Shown here: positions 4,706-63,113 of the stretch, piece by piece
Numbering within the stretch: the first letter of the stretch is position 1
Layout of the letters: every line of letters begins with the position of its first letter
Source of the DNA: Bradyrhizobium lablabi
GTDB lineage: Bacteria; Pseudomonadota; Alphaproteobacteria; Rhizobiales; Xanthobacteraceae
Reading direction: 5' to 3'
DNA length: 64,000 bases
NCBI RefSeq assembly: GCF_900141755.1
Contig: NZ_LT670844.1
Span: 4,836,001-4,900,000, forward strand
The notes under the pieces: generated by a model
The model's database searches: none
The model's input: only the letters and a program-made list of their open reading frames with translations
What the model was told of the DNA's origin: nothing
Made by a program: the position numbers and the translations under genes

Positions 4706-4830
4706 CGTCGTCCCTGCGAACGCAGGGACCCATACGCCGCGGCGGAGCCGTGGGAAGAAAGTGGGCGACGGCTTCGCTCGCAACGAGCATCGGTGGTTAT
4801 GGGTCCCTGCTTTCGCAGGGACGACGACGG
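4706..4830. repeat. Palindromic repeat, family R1
   Basis: The ends are inverted partners: CGTCGTCCCTGCG...CGCAGGGACC on the left, GGGTCCCTGC...GCAGGGACGACG on the right. About 70 less conserved bases lie between. It lies between the converging 3' ends of the SGNH esterase and metZ, so it could act as a bidirectional terminator or transcript-end stabiliser. Related copies are at 38251, 40080 and 41131. Confidence 0.75.
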
Positions 4831-22773: not shown

Positions 22774-22951
22774 GGTGTTGCACTATTCGGCGTTTCTAAC
22801 GGCGGGTGTGCTTCATACTCAGTGCTCTTAATCTCGGACCAATTGAAATTGGAAATTTTTTATAGGGATTTTCGCACTAATACATATAGGGAGGGGCGAT
22901 CTGCATCTCCTCGGTTTTGCTCCCGATTGAATGTCCGCTATTGGGTTGCCG

Positions 22952-24170
22952 GCTCAACCGGTCGACGCAACACAGGCGCTAAATCTCTCTGCTGGGGTTT
23001 CAAATTGCAAGGTCTCACGTGGTCGTTCGTTTAGCTGACGAGCCACTTTGTTCAGGTAGGCTTGTGAGTGCACCGACAAGTCGGTGCCCTTCGGAAAGTA
23101 CTGTCTCAGCAGGCCATTGGTGTTCTCGTTCGACCCGCGCTGCCACGGGCTTTGCGGATCGCAAAAATATACGTCGATTTTGGTCGCCAACGTAAAGCGA
23201 CGATGATCCGTAAGTTCCTTTCCCCGATCCCAGGTCAGGGACTTATACAGCTCCTTTGGTAGCTTCTTCGCCTGCTTGATGAGCGCGGTGACGACCGTTC
23301 GGGTGTCCTTACCGGCCACCTTGGCCAACATCACGTAGCGCGTATGACGCTCGACCAAGGTCGCGATGTAGCTGTTGTTCGGCCCGGACAGCAGATCGCC
23401 TTCCCAATGGCCAGGCACCGCTCGATCTTCAACCGCCGCCGGTCGCTGGCGGATTGAGACGATATCCTTGATATGCCCCCGTCTATCGCCATCCGGATCG
23501 ACCGGCTTGGAGCGACGCATCGAGCGCTTCGATCGAAGATGACTAAGCAGCTCTTTCTTGAGCACGCCACGGGTTTGTACAAATAAGCTGCGGTAGATCG
23601 TCTCGTGTGACACCTGATTACACTCGTCTTCAGGATGCGTTCTCTTCAGCCAGCCGGCTATCTGCTCGGGTGACCAATCCAATCTGAGCTTCCCCGCGAC
23701 AGCTCGCCGTAGCCGCGGACTGCTCGCCAATTTACAGCATTTTGGACGACGAGCTCGCGCCCAGGCATTCTCGTCCGCAAGCGTCGCTCGGTAGCGATCA
23801 TAGCCGCCATTGCGGCTCATTTCCCGGCTCACCGTCGAGGGTGAGCGGCCAAGCAACTTGGCGATCGATCGGGCCGATCGATGTGCCGTAACACCTCTGG
23901 AAATCACCTCGCGTTCCGCGAGCGTCAATGCCAGCCTGGAGCGACGCCGCTCGGCAGGACGAATCCCACCATGCGGAGCCACCAAAAAATAGATCGACGA
24001 TGACTGCTTACCAAAAGCGCGTCCGATCGCCTTTAGCGACTCCCCGCGCTTCCAGCGATCCCATAACTCCGTTTTCTCTGCCGCAGTAAACCCTCTATGA
24101 AATTTGTGAGCCATCAAACCACACTCCATCTCTCCTTTAAGATAAAGTGTTGCGTCAACCGGTTGAGACC
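22952..24170 (-). mobile_element. IS30-family insertion sequence, copy 1
   Basis: The element is about 1.22 kb. Its ends carry inverted repeats CTCAACCGGTCGACGCAACAC (left, as written) and CTCAACCGGTTGACGCAACAC (right, on the other strand), one mismatch apart. It encodes one transposase. An almost identical copy lies at 56158-57376, same orientation. The transposase stop lies inside the left repeat. Confidence 0.92.
22954..24114 (-). CDS. IS30-family transposase (copy 1)
   Basis: The 386-residue DDE transposase has an N-terminal helix-turn-helix (FTAAEKTELWDRWKRGESLKAIGRAFGK), a second HTH (SIAKLLGRSPSTVSREM), and the IS30 catalytic residues in GHWEGDLLSG (Asp), LTWDRGKEL (Asp) and GSNENTNGLLRQYFPKGTD (Glu). 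The frame is intact. ATG 24114 gives MAHKFHRG; ATG 24129, five codons upstream, lies closer to AAGGAG and is also possible. Confidence 0.93.
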   Translation of the reverse strand: MAHKFHRGFTAAEKTELWDRWKRGESLKAIGRAFGKQSSSIYFLVAPHGGIRPAERRRSRLALTLAEREVISRGVTAHRSARSIAKLLGRSPSTVSREMSRNGGYDRYRATLADENAWARARRPKCCKLASSPRLRRAVAGKLRLDWSPEQIAGWLKRTHPEDECNQVSHETIYRSLFVQTRGVLKKELLSHLRSKRSMRRSKPVDPDGDRRGHIKDIVSIRQRPAAVEDRAVPGHWEGDLLSGPNNSYIATLVERHTRYVMLAKVAGKDTRTVVTALIKQAKKLPKELYKSLTWDRGKELTDHRRFTLATKIDVYFCDPQSPWQRGSNENTNGLLRQYFPKGTDLSVHSQAYLNKVARQLNERPRETLQFETPAERFSACVASTG

Positions 24171-37090: not shown

Positions 37091-37236
37091 TTCTCCCCTC
37101 CCTCCACGCGCATCGCGCGTGGCGGGGAGGGGTCGGGGGTGGGGGTGGCTCCGCAACCTCGCTGCGCGCAGGAGAGCGAACGGAGAGACCCCCCACCCCC
37201 GACCCCTCCCCACCGCTTCGCGGGGGAGGGGAGAAG
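37091..37236. repeat. Palindromic repeat R3, intergenic copy
   Basis: The ends are inverted partners (TTCTCCCCTCCC on the left, GGGAGGGGAGAAG on the right), with GGGGAGGGGTCGGGGGTGGG and CCCACCCCCGACCCCTCCCC inside and CTCGCTGCGCGC in the centre. One plus frame is open across it and reads ATSLRAGERTERPPTPDPSP then GGGE, the same peptide as in the ligase and helicase copies. It lies between SCO1 and the binding-protein gene. Confidence 0.85.
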
Positions 37237-43610: not shown

Positions 43611-43803
43611 ACCTCTCCCCGCTTGCGGGGAGAGGCATAGGCCGCCCTTGGCGGCCGGTCCTTAGAAGAACGCCGAAGCGTAGCTTCGGCTATGTCGCAT
43701 CGAAGACGCGATCCGGGTGAGGGGGACCCTCCGCGAGTCCGAGTATGCCGATAGAGCCCCTCACCCCGACCCTCTCCCCGCGAAGAGCAGGGAGAGGGAG
43801 AAG
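43611..43803. repeat. Palindromic repeat, family R2
   Basis: ACCTCTCCCCGCTTGCGGGG opens it, and CCCTCTCCCCGCG...GGAGAGGGAGAAG closes it. GAAGCGTAGCTTCGGCTATG lies near the middle and GGGTGAGGGGGACCCTCCGCG follows. It fills most of the gap between the converging pyrD and MATE genes. Copies, one inverted, are at 51006 and 60113. Confidence 0.8.
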
Positions 43804-45730: not shown

Positions 45731-45795
45731 TCCTCACCATGAGGGGTTAGACCTCATCCTGAGGAGCGGCCTCTTGGCCGCGTCTCGAAGGATGA
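45731..45795. repeat. Palindromic repeat, family R4
   Basis: CCTCATCCTGAGGAGCGGCC, then TCTTGGCCGCGTCTCGAAGG and ATGAAG follow a TCCTCACCATGAGGGG hairpin. A longer, double copy lies at 62979-63113. It separates the DUF6460 gene and the ligase gene. Confidence 0.75.
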
Positions 45796-45829: not shown

Positions 45830-47653
45830 TCAAACCACTCGCTCGGTTTTCAGCATCCGCTCCAGCGTTTCCAGCCGGTCGGCCTCGCGCGGCGGCTTGT
45901 CCCAGCGCAACCGGCTGATGCGCGGAAACCGCATCGCGACGCCGGATTTATGTCGCGAGGAGCGCTGCAAACCCTCGAAAGCCACTTCCAGCACCAGCCC
46001 CTGATCCGGCTCATGCACCACATGGCGGACGGGACCGAATTTTTCGGTGGTGTTGCGTCGGACAAAACGGTCGATCTGCAGCAGCTCCTCGTCGGTAAAG
46101 CCAAAATAGGCCTTGCCGACCGGCACCAGCTGCTCGCCATCATCGCCCGCTGTCCAGACGCCGAACGTATAATCCGAATAATACGACGAGCGCTTGCCGT
46201 GACCGCGCTGCGCGTACATCAGGACGGCGTCGATGATGTGCGGATCGCGCTTCCATTTCCACCATTGGCCTTTCGGGCGCCCCGGCAGATAGGGCGCATC
46301 GCGGCGCTTGAGCATCACGCCCTCGACGGCTTCGGCATCGTCGCCGGCGCTGGCGCCGGCCGGATTTTTCCGGGCCGATGTCAGCGCTTCCCAGCTGGCA
46401 AAAGCAATCGTCGGCGACAGGTCGATCCTCGCATCGTCGAGTTTTGTCACAAAAGCCTCGAGCCGCTTGCGGCGCTCGGCGAACGGTAGCGTGCGCAGAT
46501 CGGCGTCGCCCTCGCCGAGCAGATCGTAGGCGCGCAGATGGATCGGATAATCCTTTGTCAGTTTCGGCGAGACCAGTTTGCGGTTCAGCCGCTGCTGCAG
46601 CACGTTGAAACTCTGCACCCTTCCGTCGCGGACCACCAGCAATTCGCCGTCGATGGCGCCGGGCAGATGTAATGACGGCAGCAGGTCCGGAAAACTCTTG
46701 GTGATGTCCTCGCCGCTGCGCGAATAAAGCCGGGCCTGCATGTTTCCGCGCTCGTCGCGGCCGCTCACCGCCTGCACACGGATGCCGTCCCATTTCCACT
46801 CCGCGATGAAATCGGCGGCGTTAAGACCCGTAAAATCCGCATCCTCGATCGCATGCGCCAGCATCACGGGGCGGAAGGGCGTGGGGTCGAGATTGACCGG
46901 TTTTTCGGCGCGGCCCTCGAGCCACGCGAACAGGTCGAGATAAGGCGGCGTAAGCCCCGGCCACATCAATTCGATTTCATGCGGGTCCTTGTCCCCAAGC
47001 TCGGCGGCCGCGGTTTTTGCCAGCCGCGCCGAAATGCCGATCCGCATCGCGCCGGTCACGAGTTTTAACAGCGCCCAGCGGCCGGTCTCATCGAGCTCGT
47101 CGAGCCAGCGCGCGAGTTGTCCCGGCAGTTCGGTCTTGCCGAGCGTGCGCAGGGTGGTGACGACTTCGGCGAGCGTCGGCGGCGGTGGGTTGTTGTGGCC
47201 AGCCACAGTGCGCTCCCCTCCCCCCGCGAGCGAAGCGAGTGGTGGGGAGGGAGCCTGCCCCGGACTTGATCCGGGGTCGGGGGTGGGGGGTCTCTCCGCG
47301 TGCTCTTCTGCTCGCAGCGAGGCTGCGGCGCCACCCCCCACCCCCGACCCCTCCCCACCGCTTCGCGGGGGGAGGGGAGAAGATTTCGGCCACATCAGCG
47401 CCACCGTCTCCGAGAGATCGCCGACATAATCATACGACAGCGCGAATAGCACGGGATCGGTGCGCGCCGCGATCAGGTCGCGGATCAGGGCCGGCTTTGC
47501 GTGCTTGAACGACAGCGCGCCGGTCAGCGCCGCGAGCGCGTAGCCGCGATCGGGATCCTCGACTTCGCGAAAATAGGCGGTCAAGAGCCGCAGCTTGTTG
47601 TTGCGGCCGGGCTCATAGGCGAGGCGGTCGAGCAGCTGCGCAAAGCGGTTCAT
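45830..47653 (-). CDS. ATP-dependent DNA ligase of the ligase-associated repair set, with in-frame repeat insertion
   Basis: The 607-residue ligase has a helical N-terminal domain (residues 1-90 and 160-260) and the adenylation domain with the active-site Lys287 in AEWKWDGIRVQ, then IDGELLVV, VEGVMLKRRDAPY and KWKRDP. The C-terminal OB-fold includes GFTDEELLQIDRF. It seals nicks, probably in repair rather than replication. About 60 residues (90-148) are not ligase sequence but the translation of repeat R3, which explains the unusual length (relatives are near 530). The frame is intact around it. ATG 47653 overlaps the exonuclease stop (ATGA), so the pair is an operon with the exonuclease first. 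Confidence 0.92.
   Translation of the reverse strand: MNRFAQLLDRLAYEPGRNNKLRLLTAYFREVEDPDRGYALAALTGALSFKHAKPALIRDLIAARTDPVLFALSYDYVGDLSETVALMWPKSSPLPPRSGGEGSGVGGGAAASLRAEEHAERPPTPDPGSSPGQAPSPPLASLAGGGERTVAGHNNPPPPTLAEVVTTLRTLGKTELPGQLARWLDELDETGRWALLKLVTGAMRIGISARLAKTAAAELGDKDPHEIELMWPGLTPPYLDLFAWLEGRAEKPVNLDPTPFRPVMLAHAIEDADFTGLNAADFIAEWKWDGIRVQAVSGRDERGNMQARLYSRSGEDITKSFPDLLPSLHLPGAIDGELLVVRDGRVQSFNVLQQRLNRKLVSPKLTKDYPIHLRAYDLLGEGDADLRTLPFAERRKRLEAFVTKLDDARIDLSPTIAFASWEALTSARKNPAGASAGDDAEAVEGVMLKRRDAPYLPGRPKGQWWKWKRDPHIIDAVLMYAQRGHGKRSSYYSDYTFGVWTAGDDGEQLVPVGKAYFGFTDEELLQIDRFVRRNTTEKFGPVRHVVHEPDQGLVLEVAFEGLQRSSRHKSGVAMRFPRISRLRWDKPPREADRLETLERMLKTERVV
47213..47383. repeat. Palindromic repeat R3 inside the ligase gene
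   Basis: The 171-bp element has the ends CTCCCCTCCCCCC and GGGGGGAGGGGAGAAGA. It keeps the reading frame of the ligase and encodes PPRSGGEGSGVGGG, SLRAEE, AERPPTPDP and GGGE. A further short palindrome (CCCCGGACTTGATCCGGGG) is nested inside it and adds about seven residues. Relative to the coding strand it has the same orientation as the helicase copy. Confidence 0.9.
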
Positions 47654-48690
47654 GCCTCGGAATCCTCGCCCGGCGGCAATGTCTCGCCTTCATCCTCATC
47701 GCCATAGCCGACCAGATCGAGCGGTCGCGCGGCAAGACCCTTGGTCGTGCACCAACGCACCAGCGCGTCTTCCTGGCCGTGGGTGACCCAGATCTCGCCG
47801 GCGCCGGTGGCGTCGATCGTCGCGGTCAATCCGTCCCAATCGGCGTGATCCGAGATCACCAGCGGCAGTTCGACGCCGCCCTGGCGGGCGCGGGCGCGGA
47901 CCCGCATCCAGCCAGACGCGAACGCGGTGACCGGGTCGGGGAATCGTCGCGTCCAGATATCGGCGGTCGCCGTCGGCGGCGCCAGCGTGATGGTGCCGGC
48001 GAGATCGGCCTTCTTCATGCCTTTGACGGCGCGCAGCTCGCCGAGCGCAACGCCGCGGCTCTCGTAATAACGCGTGATCTTTTCCATCGCCCCGTGCAGG
48101 TAGACCGGCGCGTCGTAGCCGGCCGCGCGCAACAGCGCGATCACGCGCTGCGCCTTGCCGAGCGAATAGGCGCCGACCAGATGCGCCCGCTCCGGAAACA
48201 GCGCCACCGAGTCCAGCAATTTCCTGACCTGAAGCGCCGCATCGCCGTGGCGGAACACCGGCAATCCAAAGGTGGCCTCGGTGATGAAGACGTCGCAGGG
48301 CACCATTTCGAACGGTACGCAGGTCGGGTCGGGTGCGTCCTTGTAATCGCCGGAGGCGACGATGCGCTTGTCCTGGCAGGTGACCGCGATCTGCGCCGAG
48401 CCCAGCACATGGCCCGCGGGGTGAAATGTTACGCTGACGTCGCCGAGTTTTATCTGTTCGCCATAGACAATCGCCTGCGTGCTTCCGGCGAAATTGTCGC
48501 CATAGCGCAGCCGCATCATGTCTAGCGTCTCTTGAGTGGCCAGCACCGCGTCATGGCCCGGCCGGGCGTGGTCGGAATGGCCGTGGGTGATCAGGGCACG
48601 CTCGACGGGGCGTACCGGATCGATATGGAAGCCGCCGGGCTTGCAGCAAAGGCCGGCGGCAACGGGCATCAGGATGTCTTGCGGACGCAT
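47650..48690 (-). CDS. Ligase-associated MBL-fold DNA exonuclease
   Basis: The 346-residue protein is a metallo-beta-lactamase/beta-CASP-type nuclease: ALITHGHSDHARPG carries the HxHxDH metal site, FHPAGHVLGSAQ and ASGDYKDAPDP the next ligands, and LPLVISDHADWDGL and WVTHGQEDALVRW the later motifs. The family (ligase-associated exonuclease) is encoded with an ATP-dependent ligase, a DEXH helicase and a phosphoesterase in many bacteria. The stop overlaps the ligase start. ATG 48690 is divergent from the methyltransferase gene. Confidence 0.9.
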   Translation of the reverse strand: MRPQDILMPVAAGLCCKPGGFHIDPVRPVERALITHGHSDHARPGHDAVLATQETLDMMRLRYGDNFAGSTQAIVYGEQIKLGDVSVTFHPAGHVLGSAQIAVTCQDKRIVASGDYKDAPDPTCVPFEMVPCDVFITEATFGLPVFRHGDAALQVRKLLDSVALFPERAHLVGAYSLGKAQRVIALLRAAGYDAPVYLHGAMEKITRYYESRGVALGELRAVKGMKKADLAGTITLAPPTATADIWTRRFPDPVTAFASGWMRVRARARQGGVELPLVISDHADWDGLTATIDATGAGEIWVTHGQEDALVRWCTTKGLAARPLDLVGYGDEDEGETLPPGEDSEA

Positions 48691-51005: not shown

Positions 51006-51202
51006 CTTCTCCCTCTCCCCGCTCTTCGCGGGGAGAGGGCCGGGGTGAGGGGCCGCCTCCGCAAATTCCGAAGATAAACGATCGCGGAGAGTCCCCCTCA
51101 CCCGGATTGCTTCGCAACATAGCCGAAGCTTCGCTTCGGCGTACTTATCTGAGGACGGCCGCCGAAGGCGGCCTATGCCTCTCCCCGCAAGCGGGGCGAG
51201 GT
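51006..51202. repeat. Palindromic repeat, family R2 (inverted relative to 43611)
   Basis: CTTCTCCCTCTCCCCGC, GGGTGAGGGG, CCCCCTCACCCGGATTGC, the GCGAAGCTTCGGCTATG core in reverse and TCTCCCCGCAAGCGGGGCGAG are all present. It occupies most of the gap before the helicase. A frame crossing it gives the helicase a false upstream extension. Confidence 0.8.
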
Positions 51203-51268
51203 AAGGCCAGCGCGCCGATTTGGTTGTGCCCCTCGACGAAACCGCCGCGACGGCATACCTCTTGGCGC

Positions 51269-54013
51269 GTGCCGCCCAACATCCAGACCGCTCTTCCGAT
51301 TGAGCCAGCCGAGCTGCTGCCGGACCGCTTTCGCCAATGGTTCACGGGCCGCGGATGGTCGCCGCGCGAGCACCAGCTCGAGTTATTGGCAAAAGCCCGC
51401 GACGATCGCTCGGCGCTGTTGATTGCGCCTACCGGCGCCGGCAAAACCTTGGCCGGATTTTTGCCGACGCTGGTGGAGCTGAGTGCGGCTTCTCCTCTAG
51501 CGCGGTCTGCTCCCCACCCCCCGCGCAGTGGTGGGGAGGGGTCGGGGGTGGGGGGTGGTGCCCCAACCTCGCTGCGAGCGGCAGAGCGCGCGGAGAGGCC
51601 CCCCACCCCCGACCCCTCCCCGCCACGCGCTGCGCGCGTGGGGGGAGGGGAGAACACCGCGCTCGCTGCGCCATCACTACCCCGCACTCTCATCTCCACC
51701 GGCCGAAGCGTGCAGAAGAGCCGCGGCCTGCACACGCTCTACATCTCACCGTTGAAGGCACTCGCGGTCGATATCGCGCGCAATCTGGAAGCGCCGGTTG
51801 CCGAGATGGGGCTGCCGATCAAGATCGAAACCCGCACCGGCGACACGCCGGTTTCGCGGCGGCAGCGCCAACGGCGCTATCCGCCGGATATCCTGCTCAC
51901 CACGCCCGAGCAACTGGCGCTGTTATTGTCGTCCGACGACGCGCCGTTTTTATTCTCCTCGCTCAAGCGCATCGTGCTCGACGAATTGCATGCGCTGGTC
52001 ACTTCAAAACGCGGCGATCTGTTGTCGCTCGGCCTGGCGCGGCTGTGGCAACTTGCGCCGCAGATGCGCGCGATCGGGCTGTCGGCGACGGTTGCGGAGC
52101 CGGAATCGCTGGCGCGGTTTTTGGTCCCGCAGCACGAGGGCACGAACAAAGCCGCCGACATCGTGGTCGCCGGCGGCGCCGCCGCGCCTGTTGTCGAGAT
52201 GCTAGACACCCGCGAAAAATTGCCCTGGGCCGGCCACAGCGCGCGCCACGCGCTTAATGAAGTCTACGAACTGATCAAACGCAACAAGACCACGCTGGTG
52301 TTCGTCAACACCCGCAGCCAGGCCGAGATGCTGTTCCAGGATCTCTGGCGCATGAACGACGACGGGCTTGCGATCGCGCTGCATCACGGCTCGCTCGATG
52401 TAGCCCAACGTCGCAAGGTCGAGGACGCGATGGCGGCCGGAAAATTGCGCGGCGTGGTCTGCACGTCCTCGCTCGATCTCGGCGTCGACTGGGGCGACGT
52501 CGATCTCGTGATCAATATCGGCGCGCCGAAGGGCGCCTCGCGGCTGATGCAGCGGATCGGCCGCGCCAATCACCGCATCGACGAAGCTTCGCGCGCCGTT
52601 CTTGTTCCGGCAAATCGCTTCGAGGTGCTGGAATGCGCGGTCGCGATCGACGCGATTGCGGAAAATGCGCAGGACACCCCGCCGCTGCGCGTCGGCGCGC
52701 TCGACGTGCTGGCGCAGCATGTGCTCGGCCGCGCCTGCGGCGAGCCGTTTTTCTCCGACGAGCTTTTTGCCGAAGTGCTGACGGCTGCACCTTATTCAAA
52801 TCTCTCGCGGACCGATTTCGACGACGTGGTCGATTTCGTCGCCACCGGCGGCTACGCGCTGAAGACCTATGAGCGTTTTGCGCGCATCAAGCAGGACAAG
52901 CAGGGCCGCTGGCGCGTCGCCAATCCCCGGGTGCGGCAAAGCTATCGTCTCAATGTCGGCACCATCGTCGAGGAGGCGATGCTGAAAGTGCGGCTGGTGC
53001 GCTCGCGCGCCGGCGGTTCGGGGTCGACCGGTGCATTGGGGCGCGGCGGGCGGATGCTGGGCGAAATCGAGGAATATTTCATCGAGGGATTGGTGGTCGG
53101 CGACACCTTTGTCTTTGGCGGCGAGGTGGTGCGCTACGAGGCGCTGGCCGAAGACCAGGTCTACGTCTCGCGCGCCAACGACAAGGACGCAAAAGTGCCG
53201 TCCTATATGGGCGGCAAGTTTCCGCTCTCGACTTATCTCGCCGAGCGGGTACGAAACTTGCTGGCCGACAGGCCCGCCTGGGGCGGCTTGCCCGATCAGG
53301 TGCGCGACTGGCTGTCGTTGCAGGCGCATTTCTCGCGCGTCCCCGGCGTGCGCGAGCTCGTGGTCGAAACTTTTCCGCGCGGAAATAAACATTACCTGGT
53401 CTGCTATCCCTTCGAGGGCCGGCTCGCGCATCAGACGCTCGGCATGCTGTTGACGCGGCGGCTGGAGCGCGCCCGCGCCCGCCCGCTTGGCTTCATCGCC
53501 AATGAATATGCGCTTGCCGTATGGGGGCTTGGCGATATGTCGTTCATGATCCGGCAAGGAAAACTCGATCTCAACGCGCTGTTTGATTCCGACATGCTGG
53601 GTGACGATCTCGAGGCCTGGCTTGCGGAATCCGCATTGATGAAGCGCACCTTCCGCTCCGGCGCGCTGATCTCCGGATTGATCCCGCGCCGGTTCACCGG
53701 GGAGGAAAAAACCCGGCGCCAGGTGCTGTTCTCGACCGACCTTATTTACGACGTGCTGCGCAAGCACCAGGCCGATCATGTGCTGCTGCGCGCCGCGCGC
53801 GCCGACGCCGCGACCGGGCTGCTCGATCTTCGCCGGCTTGGTGATATGCTGGCGCGAATCAAAGGGCGAATCACCCACCGGGAACTCGACCGGGTTTCGC
53901 CGCTCGCGGTGCCGGTGATGCTGGAAATCGGCCGCGAGTCAGTTTATGGCGAAGCATCCGACGAGCTGTTGGCGGAAGCCGCCGACGAACTGGTCAAAGA
54001 GGCGATGTCGTAG
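51269..54013 (+). CDS. Lhr-type DEXH helicase of the ligase-associated repair set, with in-frame repeat insertion
   Basis: The protein is about 914 residues from GTG 51269. It is a superfamily 2 helicase of the ligase-associated Lhr type: Walker A APTGAGKT (residues 53-60), LYISPLKALAVDIARNL (motif Ia), VLDELHAL (motif II), GLSATVAEP (III), FVNTRSQAE, CTSSLDLGVDWGDVD (V) and QRIGRANH (VI). A winged-helix and C-terminal core follow (RRFTGEEKTRRQVLFSTDLIYDVLR). It unwinds DNA for repair with the ligase and exonuclease. Residues 80-129 are the translation of R3, between motifs I and Ia. The start is uncertain: GTG 51269 has no clear ribosome site, and the frame upstream (to 51107) lies in repeat R2. 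Confidence 0.9.
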   Translation: MPPNIQTALPIEPAELLPDRFRQWFTGRGWSPREHQLELLAKARDDRSALLIAPTGAGKTLAGFLPTLVELSAASPLARSAPHPPRSGGEGSGVGGGAPTSLRAAERAERPPTPDPSPPRAARVGGGENTALAAPSLPRTLISTGRSVQKSRGLHTLYISPLKALAVDIARNLEAPVAEMGLPIKIETRTGDTPVSRRQRQRRYPPDILLTTPEQLALLLSSDDAPFLFSSLKRIVLDELHALVTSKRGDLLSLGLARLWQLAPQMRAIGLSATVAEPESLARFLVPQHEGTNKAADIVVAGGAAAPVVEMLDTREKLPWAGHSARHALNEVYELIKRNKTTLVFVNTRSQAEMLFQDLWRMNDDGLAIALHHGSLDVAQRRKVEDAMAAGKLRGVVCTSSLDLGVDWGDVDLVINIGAPKGASRLMQRIGRANHRIDEASRAVLVPANRFEVLECAVAIDAIAENAQDTPPLRVGALDVLAQHVLGRACGEPFFSDELFAEVLTAAPYSNLSRTDFDDVVDFVATGGYALKTYERFARIKQDKQGRWRVANPRVRQSYRLNVGTIVEEAMLKVRLVRSRAGGSGSTGALGRGGRMLGEIEEYFIEGLVVGDTFVFGGEVVRYEALAEDQVYVSRANDKDAKVPSYMGGKFPLSTYLAERVRNLLADRPAWGGLPDQVRDWLSLQAHFSRVPGVRELVVETFPRGNKHYLVCYPFEGRLAHQTLGMLLTRRLERARARPLGFIANEYALAVWGLGDMSFMIRQGKLDLNALFDSDMLGDDLEAWLAESALMKRTFRSGALISGLIPRRFTGEEKTRRQVLFSTDLIYDVLRKHQADHVLLRAARADAATGLLDLRRLGDMLARIKGRITHRELDRVSPLAVPVMLEIGRESVYGEASDELLAEAADELVKEAMS
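51506..51653. repeat. Palindromic repeat R3 inside the helicase gene
   Basis: The 148-bp element runs from TCTGCTCCCCACC to GTGGGGGGAGGGGAGA and contains GGGGAGGGGTCGGGGGTGGG and CCCACCCCCGACCCCTCCCC. It encodes PPRSGGEGSGVGGG, SLRAAERAERPPTPDP and GGGE in the helicase frame, the same peptide and orientation as in the ligase gene. Confidence 0.92.
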
Positions 54014-54044: not shown

Positions 54045-54172
54045 CGTCATGCCCGGGCATAGCAGTCTGCCTTGCGCAGACTGCGTACACTTGTCTGCGC
54101 TCCCGGGCATCCACGTCTTTCTTTCTCGCGAAGCAAAGACGTGGATGGCCGGGACAAGCCCGGCCATGACGA
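54045..54172. repeat. Palindromic repeat, family R6
   Basis: CGTCATGCCCGGGCATAG opens it and GGACAAGCCCGGCCATGACG closes it, with CATCCACGTCTTT and AAAGACGTGGATG as internal inverted arms. It fills the gap between the helicase and phosphoesterase genes; its last bases contain the phosphoesterase ATG. Confidence 0.8.
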
Positions 54173-54861
54173 GCATTGCCGTCGATATCGCCTGTCGTCC
54201 TTCATTGAACGTTGCTGGTGTGGATCTGGTCGCCGATCTCTCCGGCGCCCTGTTCTGGGAACAGCAAAACCTGCTCGTCGTCTCCGATCTGCATCTGGAA
54301 AAAGGCTCGAGCTTCGCCGCGCGCGGCGTGCTGCTGCCGCCTTACGATACGGCCGCGACGCTCGGCCGCCTCGCCGCCGTGATCGCGCGGCACGACCCGC
54401 GCATGGTGGTCGCGCTCGGCGACAGTTTTCACGACCGCGACGCCCATCGGCGGCTGTCCGCGGCGGACCGCGACGCCATCGCAAGCTTGCAGGCGAGGCG
54501 CGACTGGATCTGGATTTCGGGCAATCACGATCCGGCGCTGCCGACCGATCTCGGCGGCGTGGTCGCGACCGAAGTGGCGATCGGGCCCATTGTCTTTCGT
54601 CACGAGCCGACTGGTGCCGCGGGCGAAATCGCCGGTCATCTGCATCCGAAAGCGCGGGTGTCGACGCGCGGCCGTTCGATGGAGCGCCGCTGTTTTGCGT
54701 CAGACGGCGAGCGCGCGGTGATGCCGGCATTCGGCGCCTATACCGGCGGCCTGAGCATCCGCGACGCGGCATTTGCAAAGATATTCCAGACGCTGGGCTT
54801 CATGGCCCATGTGCTCGGCGACGTCAGGCTGCACACCATCGCGGCGTCGCGGTGCCATTGA
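54166..54861 (+). CDS. Ligase-associated metallophosphoesterase
   Basis: The 231-residue protein is a calcineurin-like phosphoesterase of the ligase-associated type: VVSDLHLEKGSSFAARG (metal site), VALGDSFHDRDA, WISGNHDPAL and GEIAGHLHPKARV supply the Asp, His and Asn ligands, and MPAFGAYTGGLSI ends the fold. It completes the set with ligase, exonuclease and helicase. Its only good start, ATG 54166, lies in the right end of repeat R6, without a clear ribosome site; GTG at codon 19 is the next choice. It is 152 bases after the helicase on the same strand. Confidence 0.88.
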   Translation: MTSIAVDIACRPSLNVAGVDLVADLSGALFWEQQNLLVVSDLHLEKGSSFAARGVLLPPYDTAATLGRLAAVIARHDPRMVVALGDSFHDRDAHRRLSAADRDAIASLQARRDWIWISGNHDPALPTDLGGVVATEVAIGPIVFRHEPTGAAGEIAGHLHPKARVSTRGRSMERRCFASDGERAVMPAFGAYTGGLSIRDAAFAKIFQTLGFMAHVLGDVRLHTIAASRCH

Positions 54862-56152: not shown

Positions 56153-56157
56153 TGCCG

Positions 56158-57376
56158 GCTCAACCGGTCGACGCAACACAGGCGCTAAATCTCTCTGCTG
56201 GGGTTTCAAATTGCAAGGTCTCACGTGGTCGTTCGTTTAGCTGACGAGCCACTTTGTTCAGGTAGGCTTGTGAGTGCACCGACAAGTCGGTGCCCTTCGG
56301 AAAGTACTGTCTCAGCAGGCCATTGGTGTTCTCGTTCGACCCGCGCTGCCACGGGCTTTGCGGATCGCAAAAATATACGTCGATTTTGGTCGCCAACGTA
56401 AAGCGACGATGATCCGTAAGTTCCTTTCCCCGATCCCAGGTCAGGGACTTATACAGCTCCTTTGGTAGCTTCTTCGCCTGCTTGATGAGCGCGGTGACGA
56501 CCGTTCGGGTGTCCTTACCGGCCACCTTGGCCAACATCACGTAGCGCGTATGACGCTCGACCAAGGTCGCGATGTAGCTGTTGTTCGGCCCGGACAGCAG
56601 ATCGCCTTCCCAATGGCCAGGCACCGCTCGATCTTCAACCGCCGCCGGTCGCTGGCGGATTGAGACGATATCCTTGATATGCCCCCGTCTATCGCCATCC
56701 GGATCGACCGGCTTGGAGCGACGCATCGAGCGCTTCGATCGAAGATGACTAAGCAGCTCTTTCTTGAGCACGCCACGGGTTTGTACAAATAAGCTGCGGT
56801 AGATCGTCTCGTGTGACACCTGATTACACTCGTCTTCAGGATGCGTTCTCTTCAGCCAGCCGGCTATCTGCTCGGGTGACCAATCCAATCTGAGCTTCCC
56901 CGCGACAGCTCGCCGTAGCCGCGGACTGCTCGCCAATTTACAGCATTTTGGACGACGAGCTCGCGCCCAGGCATTCTCATCTGCAAGTGCCGCTCGGTAG
57001 CGGTCATAGCCGCCATTACGGTTCATTTCCCGGCTCACCGTCGAGGGTGAGCGGCCAAGCAACTTGGCGATCGATCGGGCCGATCGATGTGCCGTAACAC
57101 CTCTGGAAATCACCTCGCGTTCCGCGAGCGTCAATGCCAGCCTGGAGCGACGCCGCTCGGCAGGACGAATCCCACCATGCGGAGCCACCAAAAAATAGAT
57201 CGACGATGACTGCTTACCAAAAGCGCGTCCGATCGCCTTTAGCGACTCCCCGCGCTTCCAGCGATCCCATAACTCCGTTTTCTCTGCCGCAGTAAACCCT
57301 CTATGAAATTTGTGAGCCATCAAACCACACTCCATCTCTCCTTTAAGATAAAGTGTTGCGTCAACCGGTTGAGACC
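56158..57376 (-). mobile_element. IS30-family insertion sequence, copy 2
   Basis: The element matches copy 1 at 22952 over its whole length by eye (constant offset of 33206 bases), including both inverted repeats. The only differences I found are seven substitutions within 43 bases (56979-57021). It lies between two orphan binding-protein genes and interrupts a U repeat. Confidence 0.93.
56160..57320 (-). CDS. IS30-family transposase (copy 2)
   Basis: The 386-residue protein is the same as copy 1 except for two substitutions (SREMN for SREMS and RAALADE for RATLADE) in the second HTH region. DDE residues, HTH and length are intact, so both copies may be active. An ORF read-through from the flank extends the frame to 57446 but is not transposase. 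Confidence 0.93.
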   Translation of the reverse strand: MAHKFHRGFTAAEKTELWDRWKRGESLKAIGRAFGKQSSSIYFLVAPHGGIRPAERRRSRLALTLAEREVISRGVTAHRSARSIAKLLGRSPSTVSREMNRNGGYDRYRAALADENAWARARRPKCCKLASSPRLRRAVAGKLRLDWSPEQIAGWLKRTHPEDECNQVSHETIYRSLFVQTRGVLKKELLSHLRSKRSMRRSKPVDPDGDRRGHIKDIVSIRQRPAAVEDRAVPGHWEGDLLSGPNNSYIATLVERHTRYVMLAKVAGKDTRTVVTALIKQAKKLPKELYKSLTWDRGKELTDHRRFTLATKIDVYFCDPQSPWQRGSNENTNGLLRQYFPKGTDLSVHSQAYLNKVARQLNERPRETLQFETPAERFSACVASTG

Positions 57377-60112: not shown

Positions 60113-60250
60113 ACCTCTCCCCGCCTGCGGGGAGAGGTCGGATTTTACGCGGAGCGAAAAATCCGGGTGAGGGGGACTCTCCGCGAGACCGGTGATGCCG
60201 ATAGAGCCCCTCACCCCAACCCTCTCCCCGCGAAGAGCGGGGCGAGGGAG
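60113..60250. repeat. Palindromic repeat, family R2 (short form)
   Basis: CCTCTCCCCGCCTGCGGGGAGAGG opens it, then GGGTGAGGGGGACTCTCCGCG, ATGCCGATAGAGCCCCTCAC and CCTCTCCCCGCGAAGAGCGG. It lacks the GAAGC/GCTTC middle part of the other two copies. It abuts the 3' end of the LysR gene. Confidence 0.8.
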
Positions 60251-62990: not shown

Positions 62991-63113
62991 GCCACACGCA
63001 CCGGCCTCATCCTGAGGAGCGCGCTCTTGCGCGCGTCTCGAAGGATGGCAACAGGGGTGCAAGCGTCCATCCTTCGAGACGCGGCCAAGTGGCCGCTCCT
63101 CAGGATGAGGAGC
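62979..63113. repeat. Palindromic repeat, family R4, double form
   Basis: CCTCATCCTGAGGAGCGCGC and GTCTCGAAGGATGG are followed by the inverse ATCCTTCGAGACGCGGCC and CTCCTCAGGATGAGG. CACCGGCCTCATCCTGA is doubled at its left edge; the first of the two supplies the stop of the MBL gene. It lies between converging genes. Confidence 0.8.

Follow-up and report, generated by a model that had tools for sequence, protein, structure and literature searches.

The R3 element in the ligase gene

The window, the whole 64,000-nt stretch of Bradyrhizobium lablabi DNA analysed here, carries on its minus strand the gene of a cisplatin damage response ATP-dependent DNA ligase of 607 aa (45830..47653; TIGR04120, 801 bits, cut-off 400). 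Residues 91-147 of this protein are encoded in frame by a palindromic element, R3 (47213..47383, minus strand), which was recognized from its sequence, its matches in the same genome and its fold. This copy of about 171 bp has no stop in the ligase sense. Its predicted fold had a z value of -6.7, and none of 200 shuffled sequences folded equally well. In the alignment to solved chains, the insert sits just past a GDLSETVAL stretch that aligns with archaeal ligases. A 27-bp repeat nested in the element (47251..47277) encodes GSSPGQAP. It is a separate repeat, with a second copy at 3.497 Mb (C1:3496990-3497016, 100% match). The ligase-associated exonuclease gene (47650..48690, minus strand; TIGR04122, 472 bits) adjoins the ligase gene and contains no internal palindrome in this genome, according to the element list of the window.

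R3 is a short dispersed sequence with inverted arms, which fits a MITE or REP-like element. No clean target-site duplication was found, either in the ligase linkers inspected by eye or for R3, which had no clean empty site. When the ligase was compared with Pfam and NCBIfam at E 0.001, no self-splicing family that would mark an intein appeared.

Other repeats were also noted in the window. An inverted repeat of the form CCTCATCCTGAGGAGC...GTCTCGAAGGATG lies just downstream of the ligase gene (45752-45794) and occurs again at 63 kb (63005-63110). A dispersed palindromic repeat, CGTCGTCCCTGCGAA.GCAGGGACCCATAACC, is present at 4706, 40080 and 41133 and inverted at 4788 and 38333, and may be a CGTC-type REP. 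Two 300-nt stretches 33 kb apart (22947-23246 and 56153-56452) are 100% identical.

R3 in the helicase gene and elsewhere in the genome

About 3.5 to 7 kb beyond the ligase region, the plus strand encodes a ligase-associated DEXH helicase of the Lhr type (51107..54013; TIGR04121, 1101 bits), whose true start may be downstream, and the ligase-associated endonuclease PdeM (54049..54861; TIGR04123, 230 bits). The helicase gene carries R3 in frame at 51506..51655 (plus strand), corresponding to about residues 134-183. Alignment to 5v9x, which has a few residues at this position, placed the insert between what we take to be motifs I and Ia. The R3 copies of the two genes matched at 90% over 111 nt and are read in the same codon phase. 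Although R3 is nearly palindromic, its 43-nt centre is oriented alike in both genes, with 84% identity. Thus, the preliminary description was right that R3 lies in frame in the ligase with the peptides it named, and that frame and orientation are the same in the helicase. The strong fold, the 90% match and the further copies in the genome indicated that the presence of R3 in both genes is not due to chance. We place the inserts in loops from their composition and from aligning the sequences with solved chains; these loops would probably be disordered.

DNA searches of the 7.91-Mb genome with the ligase and helicase copies gave five compact R3 copies and one split by a gene, besides fragments. 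Two of these six places are in genes and the others are not. Three of the six, all in the window, lie within 15 kb; the third local copy (37091..37231, no strand assigned) is outside the coding-score frames and belongs to the 43-nt-centre subtype. The 43-nt centres of the three window copies shared 79-84% mutual identity. At 5.21 and 5.54 Mb the R3 centre is 40 nt long; these two centres are 90% identical to one another and reach at most 77% identity to those of the window copies. These comparisons suggest that one local R3 subtype may have spread to the ligase, the helicase and position 37091. Such local spread of a common 43-nt-centre subtype is a candidate cause of the likeness between the two R3 peptides.

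The same loops in orthologues

Ligase orthologues were taken as the best 80 of 536 confirmed loci, ranked with a query that itself carries the insert. In this set, the ligase site is a linker after VALMWPK and before HNNPPPP that is short in many loci and filled with a palindrome in others. We sorted 36 filled ligase rows by eye, the window included: 15 held family F1, one an F1 remnant, five F2, two F3, three R3, one R3 with swapped arms, four F5, and five other elements, some of them weak. The families translate to visibly different peptides in different frames. In one locus (L070), an F2 element stands in place of about 20 conserved residues. The helicase linker between motifs I and Ia held an insert or remnant in 18 of 54 cases (53 loci plus the window, with both anchors found), and one of the 18 (L060) was out of frame. 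Second sites also occurred, in the helicase between FLVPQ and ADIVVAGG (L054, L055, L064 and L065) and in the ligase of L080.

These orthologues bear on several points of the preliminary description. It had proposed a shared tag specific to the ligase-helicase pair, and this was not supported, as orthologues hold other families and other peptides at the same positions. Unrelated linkers at the ligase position had been named beforehand as speaking against the tag, and such linkers were found. The second helicase site of L064 also holds an R3-like element in a different frame. The simpler suggestion of insertion into tolerant loops gained support from the orthologue linkers and the tree, and the insertions proved far more recurrent than first seen.

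The tree was built from the ligase core of 74 rows, after removal of 7 of 81 that were truncated, rearranged or gapped; the linker columns were dropped by the 75% filter. Insert presence requires no fewer than 19 changes for the ligase and 14 for the helicase, for which 52 rows had data; with family labels, 26 and 16 changes are needed. These counts do not separate gain from loss, on a tree with 16 of 71 inner branches starred. The window grouped with L041 (support 90), whose ligase also holds R3, and the close relatives L034 and L046 carry F1 and no insert, respectively. Co-occurrence of ligase and helicase inserts was not significant over the 52 rows (median p 0.125). The ligase of genome G041 contains the left half of F1, with the right half missing, followed by a whole R3, indicating that two families used the ligase site in turn.

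In L388 (genome G043) and L060, the palindrome is out of frame in the helicase linker, and the gene looks broken as assembled. The ligase of Bradyrhizobium cajani (L089) is without its N-terminal part and has an unrelated open frame upstream, which may reflect a rearrangement or an assembly join.

Gene specificity of the inserts

A hairpin scan of 81 loci (1.46 Mb; the relatives being the best 80 of 536) yielded 174 hairpins, forming 128 elements, against 14 hairpins in the reversed-sequence control. Seventy-one elements lay in open frames similar on both flanks to another locus. Of these, 53 were in the ligase (34) or the helicase (19); the remaining 18 had support from at most eight loci and were judged antisense or spurious. 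A codon-usage test was passed by 41 of the 53 and by none of the 75 others, five of which were too near an end. At the chosen cut-off the test overlooked R3 in UvrB and in the ligase of genome G006, both caught by the family search, so it misses some in-gene elements. The helicase R3 of the window also fell below this cut-off.

Protein searches covered 5.77 billion proteins, each query being limited to a single frame and to close relatives of its own sequence. The ligase insert (residues 88-150) matched 130 proteins of 334-1062 aa. Among the 120 listed, 104 were ligases, including that of the window, and 16 were helicases, one of which (P0044) was assigned by sequence only. The helicase insert matched 196 proteins of 532-1694 aa; 119 of the 120 listed were ligases or helicases, and the remaining one was a UvrB (P0147). 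With a helicase insert of another family (L066) as query, all 28 matches were helicases, many of them probably with orthologous inserts.

A case-control comparison used the same 30 genomes of the genus throughout, this genome included. Ligase and helicase were taken from the initial finding, UvrB and MutS were added after an insert had been seen, and CarB and SucA were chosen blind. These last two served as the control genes, and no DNA-metabolism gene was picked blind. An element lay within the open frame in 18/30 ligases, 7/30 UvrB and 1/30 MutS. The helicase had one in 10/29, including one only near the likely start (L375); of the nine internal elements, one (L388) was out of frame over the linker. 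The hairpin scan found no element in CarB (0/29) or SucA (0/30). In G006, the scan overlooked the half R3 of the helicase (L376). That genome also has R3 in UvrB and in the ligase, which as assembled contains a G run and is out of frame, and in G041 the ligase, the helicase and UvrB each carry R3. The linker length was a multiple of three in 27 of the 28 ligases and 27 of the 28 helicases measured, two of each 30 having no anchor; the exceptions were L364 (G006) and L388 (G043, one contig).

Most CarB loci of the 30 genomes (L278-L303) showed a match interrupted close to residue 150 by some 115 nt. The interruption contained no hairpin element and was absent from this genome (G000), G041 and G015.

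A pattern search of this genome gave 113 hairpins versus 12 in the control, the matches listed reaching up to 4.20 Mb. Four of 57 elements in this genome (41 from the listed hairpins) passed the codon test, namely those in the ligase, NrdJ (L120), MutS (L144) and LeuS (L148). UvrB carries an element of another family (L248). Among the elements examined, six are thus known inside genes here, in ligase, helicase, UvrB, MutS, NrdJ and LeuS. With ribonucleotide reductase counted, all of these but LeuS belong to DNA metabolism, five in total, a hint that tolerance may not be the whole story. Measured against the control genes used, the hotspot is specific, and the earlier impression that the ligase-helicase pair is special was upheld, as the other genes examined rarely or never carry such inserts. 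Purely random in-gene insertion was rejected on the case-control result and the 53 versus 0 within the loci.

Reading frame of the inserts

The choice of frame was examined in 44 inserts, a set that includes 15 related F1 rows and leaves aside remnants and very short inserts as well as any row that contains gaps or whose frame is broken. The used frame had the fewest order-promoting residues of the six frames in 31 inserts and was the most hydrophilic by hydropathy in 18. The helicase insert of L078 ran against the frame bias. A stop was present in 56% of the alternative frames. R3 itself is open in all six frames in the helicase and in five of six in the ligase, and the openness of its frames is mostly a matter of composition. 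Frame-specific openness of R3 was rejected because of the helicase copy. The intergenic copy at 37091 is open in the used frame, as had been described, but equally in five other frames. In the intergenic R3 copies of G000 and G006 taken together, the used frame was open in 16 of 19 strand readings, versus 10 and 13 of 19 for the others. Intergenic copies thus keep the used frame open more often, indicating that the frame bias is partly built into the element. The earlier proposal of selection for a stop-free, soluble reading therefore held only in part: the bias in 31 of 44 inserts agrees with it, while openness is mostly compositional and hydropathy ranked the used frame first in only 18 of 44.

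DUF559 as a candidate mobilising nuclease

In the split R3 copy, at 5.892 Mb, a DUF559 (PF04480) gene separates the two arms. The arms surround a small nuclease gene at G000:C1:5891884-5892356 (L009, L113), and a matching arrangement was seen in G006 (L205). By our reading of the flanks, the R3-armed DUF559 gene lies between glyQ and glyS in both genomes. Among 41 genomes, a set that does not contain G041, strong R3 DNA matches occurred only in these two. Of the six DUF559 places in this genome, five have a palindrome on each side. We examined 35 DUF559 loci, relatives included; five were too short, 26 belonged to a small class and four to a class of 402 aa. Inverted arms were present in 24 of the 26 small-class loci (5/5 here, 19/21 elsewhere) and in none of the four 402-aa loci. 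The arm alignment score was at least 31 in the armed loci and 18-23 in the rest. The arm pair of a locus was mostly not the best of the cross pairs, the families being common to the loci, and the evidence lies in the occurrence of arms on both sides. This arrangement suggests DUF559 as a candidate mobilising nuclease for these palindromes, which would be moved by the enzyme encoded between such arms. No DUF559 domain was found within a ligase or helicase in the Pfam matches of the proteins listed from both R3-insert searches. Our literature search returned nothing linking DUF559 to inverted repeats, and papers combining DUF559 with a palindromic repeat were off topic by title.

Another palindrome family, of the GGGTGAGGGG...CCCCTCACCC type, has three copies in the window (43711-43800, 51009-51053 and 60161-60250). 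Arms resembling this family also flank DUF559 in L116 and L117.

Possible origin and meaning of the inserts

Overall, repair genes look like a hotspot for palindromic elements lodged in frame, with either tolerance or targeting as the possible cause. We consider the following account probable. R3 would be one of several short C/G-rich inverted-repeat families of the REP or MITE kind in Bradyrhizobium and its kin. Such elements would be mostly intergenic and would survive in a gene where a loop can take in some 15-80 residues more. Two such tolerant sites would be the ligase loop and the helicase loop between motifs I and Ia, which hold other families or none depending on the relative. Low A/T content would leave many frames open, while selection would hold the total length at a multiple of three and favour whichever frame gives the more disordered peptide, rich in Gly and Pro. 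All three window copies would derive from one local R3 subtype. The recurrence of the inserts, their common sites, their in-frame length, the specificity relative to the controls tried and the local subtype are the observations on which this account builds; tolerance and selection as the cause of in-gene residence are what we infer from them. Some observations count against this account. Tolerance by itself leaves unexplained why CarB and SucA, also large, were spared, and the ligase linkers inspected by eye showed no clean target-site duplication.

A related idea, which we offer tentatively, is that a homing-like element, moved by its DUF559 nuclease, ends in these palindromes. DNA-repair genes (ligase, Lhr helicase, UvrB, and at times MutS and ribonucleotide reductase) would then be its preferred in-frame homes, much like inteins without the splicing, through target choice or a benefit to the element and not just tolerance. 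Inteins prefer DNA-metabolism genes. A narrower form, in which an element nuclease or the insertion step prefers DNA-metabolism genes, so that target choice and not tolerance alone sets the pattern, seems rather doubtful to us. It would agree with residence mainly in repair genes and with the small DUF559 genes between inverted arms (24/26), and passages of an earlier report describe a repair-gene bias of REPs (PMC3733652). However, no DUF559 was seen within ligase or helicase among the listed proteins, only two of the six R3 places of this genome are in genes, and both genes have second sites.

It is improbable that the elements act as nucleic acids, with a DNA or mRNA hairpin tuning repair-gene expression and the peptide as a by-product. 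The families do have C/G-rich hairpins in common while their peptides differ, and the ligase R3 folds strongly, but the hairpin scan found no internal hairpin in 12/30 ligases and 20/29 helicases of the genus.

A shared functional tag, an R3 peptide letting ligase, helicase and UvrB bind one another or a common partner, is the least likely of these readings. It could draw on R3 in both ligase and helicase of G000 and G041, on the out-of-frame ligase R3 and half helicase R3 of G006, on UvrB copies in G006 and G041 that share a frame by our reading of the peptides, and on putative protein pairs (P0009/P0027 and P0066/P0118) that matched for both genes in the ligase-insert search. In most relatives, however, these sites are empty or hold other peptides, intergenic R3 copies offer the same frame outside genes, and co-occurrence in ligase and helicase was not significant (median p 0.125, 52 rows). 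The tag is thus unlikely, and it was rejected as the main reading since orthologues use other peptides at the same sites.

An old remark, that in-gene palindromic repeats are strangely frequent in DNA-repair genes, becomes a testable system of one ligase loop and one helicase loop, in which empty orthologues within one genus serve as natural controls. DUF559 becomes a candidate mobilising enzyme for palindromes without a known transposase. For annotation, the 15-80-residue peptides should be treated as element sequence, not as ligase or helicase biology.

Comparison with known systems

Dispersed palindromes of the same genus have been described as Br-REP1 and Br-REP2 (PMC5082802). The R3 consensus is different, and in the portion of that paper available to us theirs are intergenic.

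REPs carrying GTAG or CGTC tags are reported inside uvrA, uvrB, polA, recBCD, dnaE2 and the O. terrae ligase gene, and, in two Xanthomonas, at nearly the same position of recB, in passages of a 2013 paper whose authors doubted that placement in repair genes is accidental (PMC3733652). R3-type palindromes likewise reside in repair genes. Unlike those REPs, R3 has neither tag on either strand of 47213-47383, and the passages of that paper at hand do not name this ligase-helicase pair for them. The same passages define the REPtron as a RAYT transposase gene flanked by REPs (PMC3733652). The arrangement found here is similar in that a nuclease-type gene lies between copies of a dispersed palindrome, but the gene is DUF559 and not a RAYT transposase.

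Within the literature searched, no published account came to light of different families recurring at a single loop of this ligase and of this helicase, nor of the contrast with control genes, the frame bias or the DUF559 link.

The nearest known kind, from the part of the source available, are the Rickettsia palindromic elements (RPEs), palindromic repeats of about 150 bp located both between genes and in frame within genes (PMC10969869). As with these, R3-type elements are found in frame in conserved genes as well as between genes. The likeness is one of description: the genus is another, and here several families occupy one site of the same gene.
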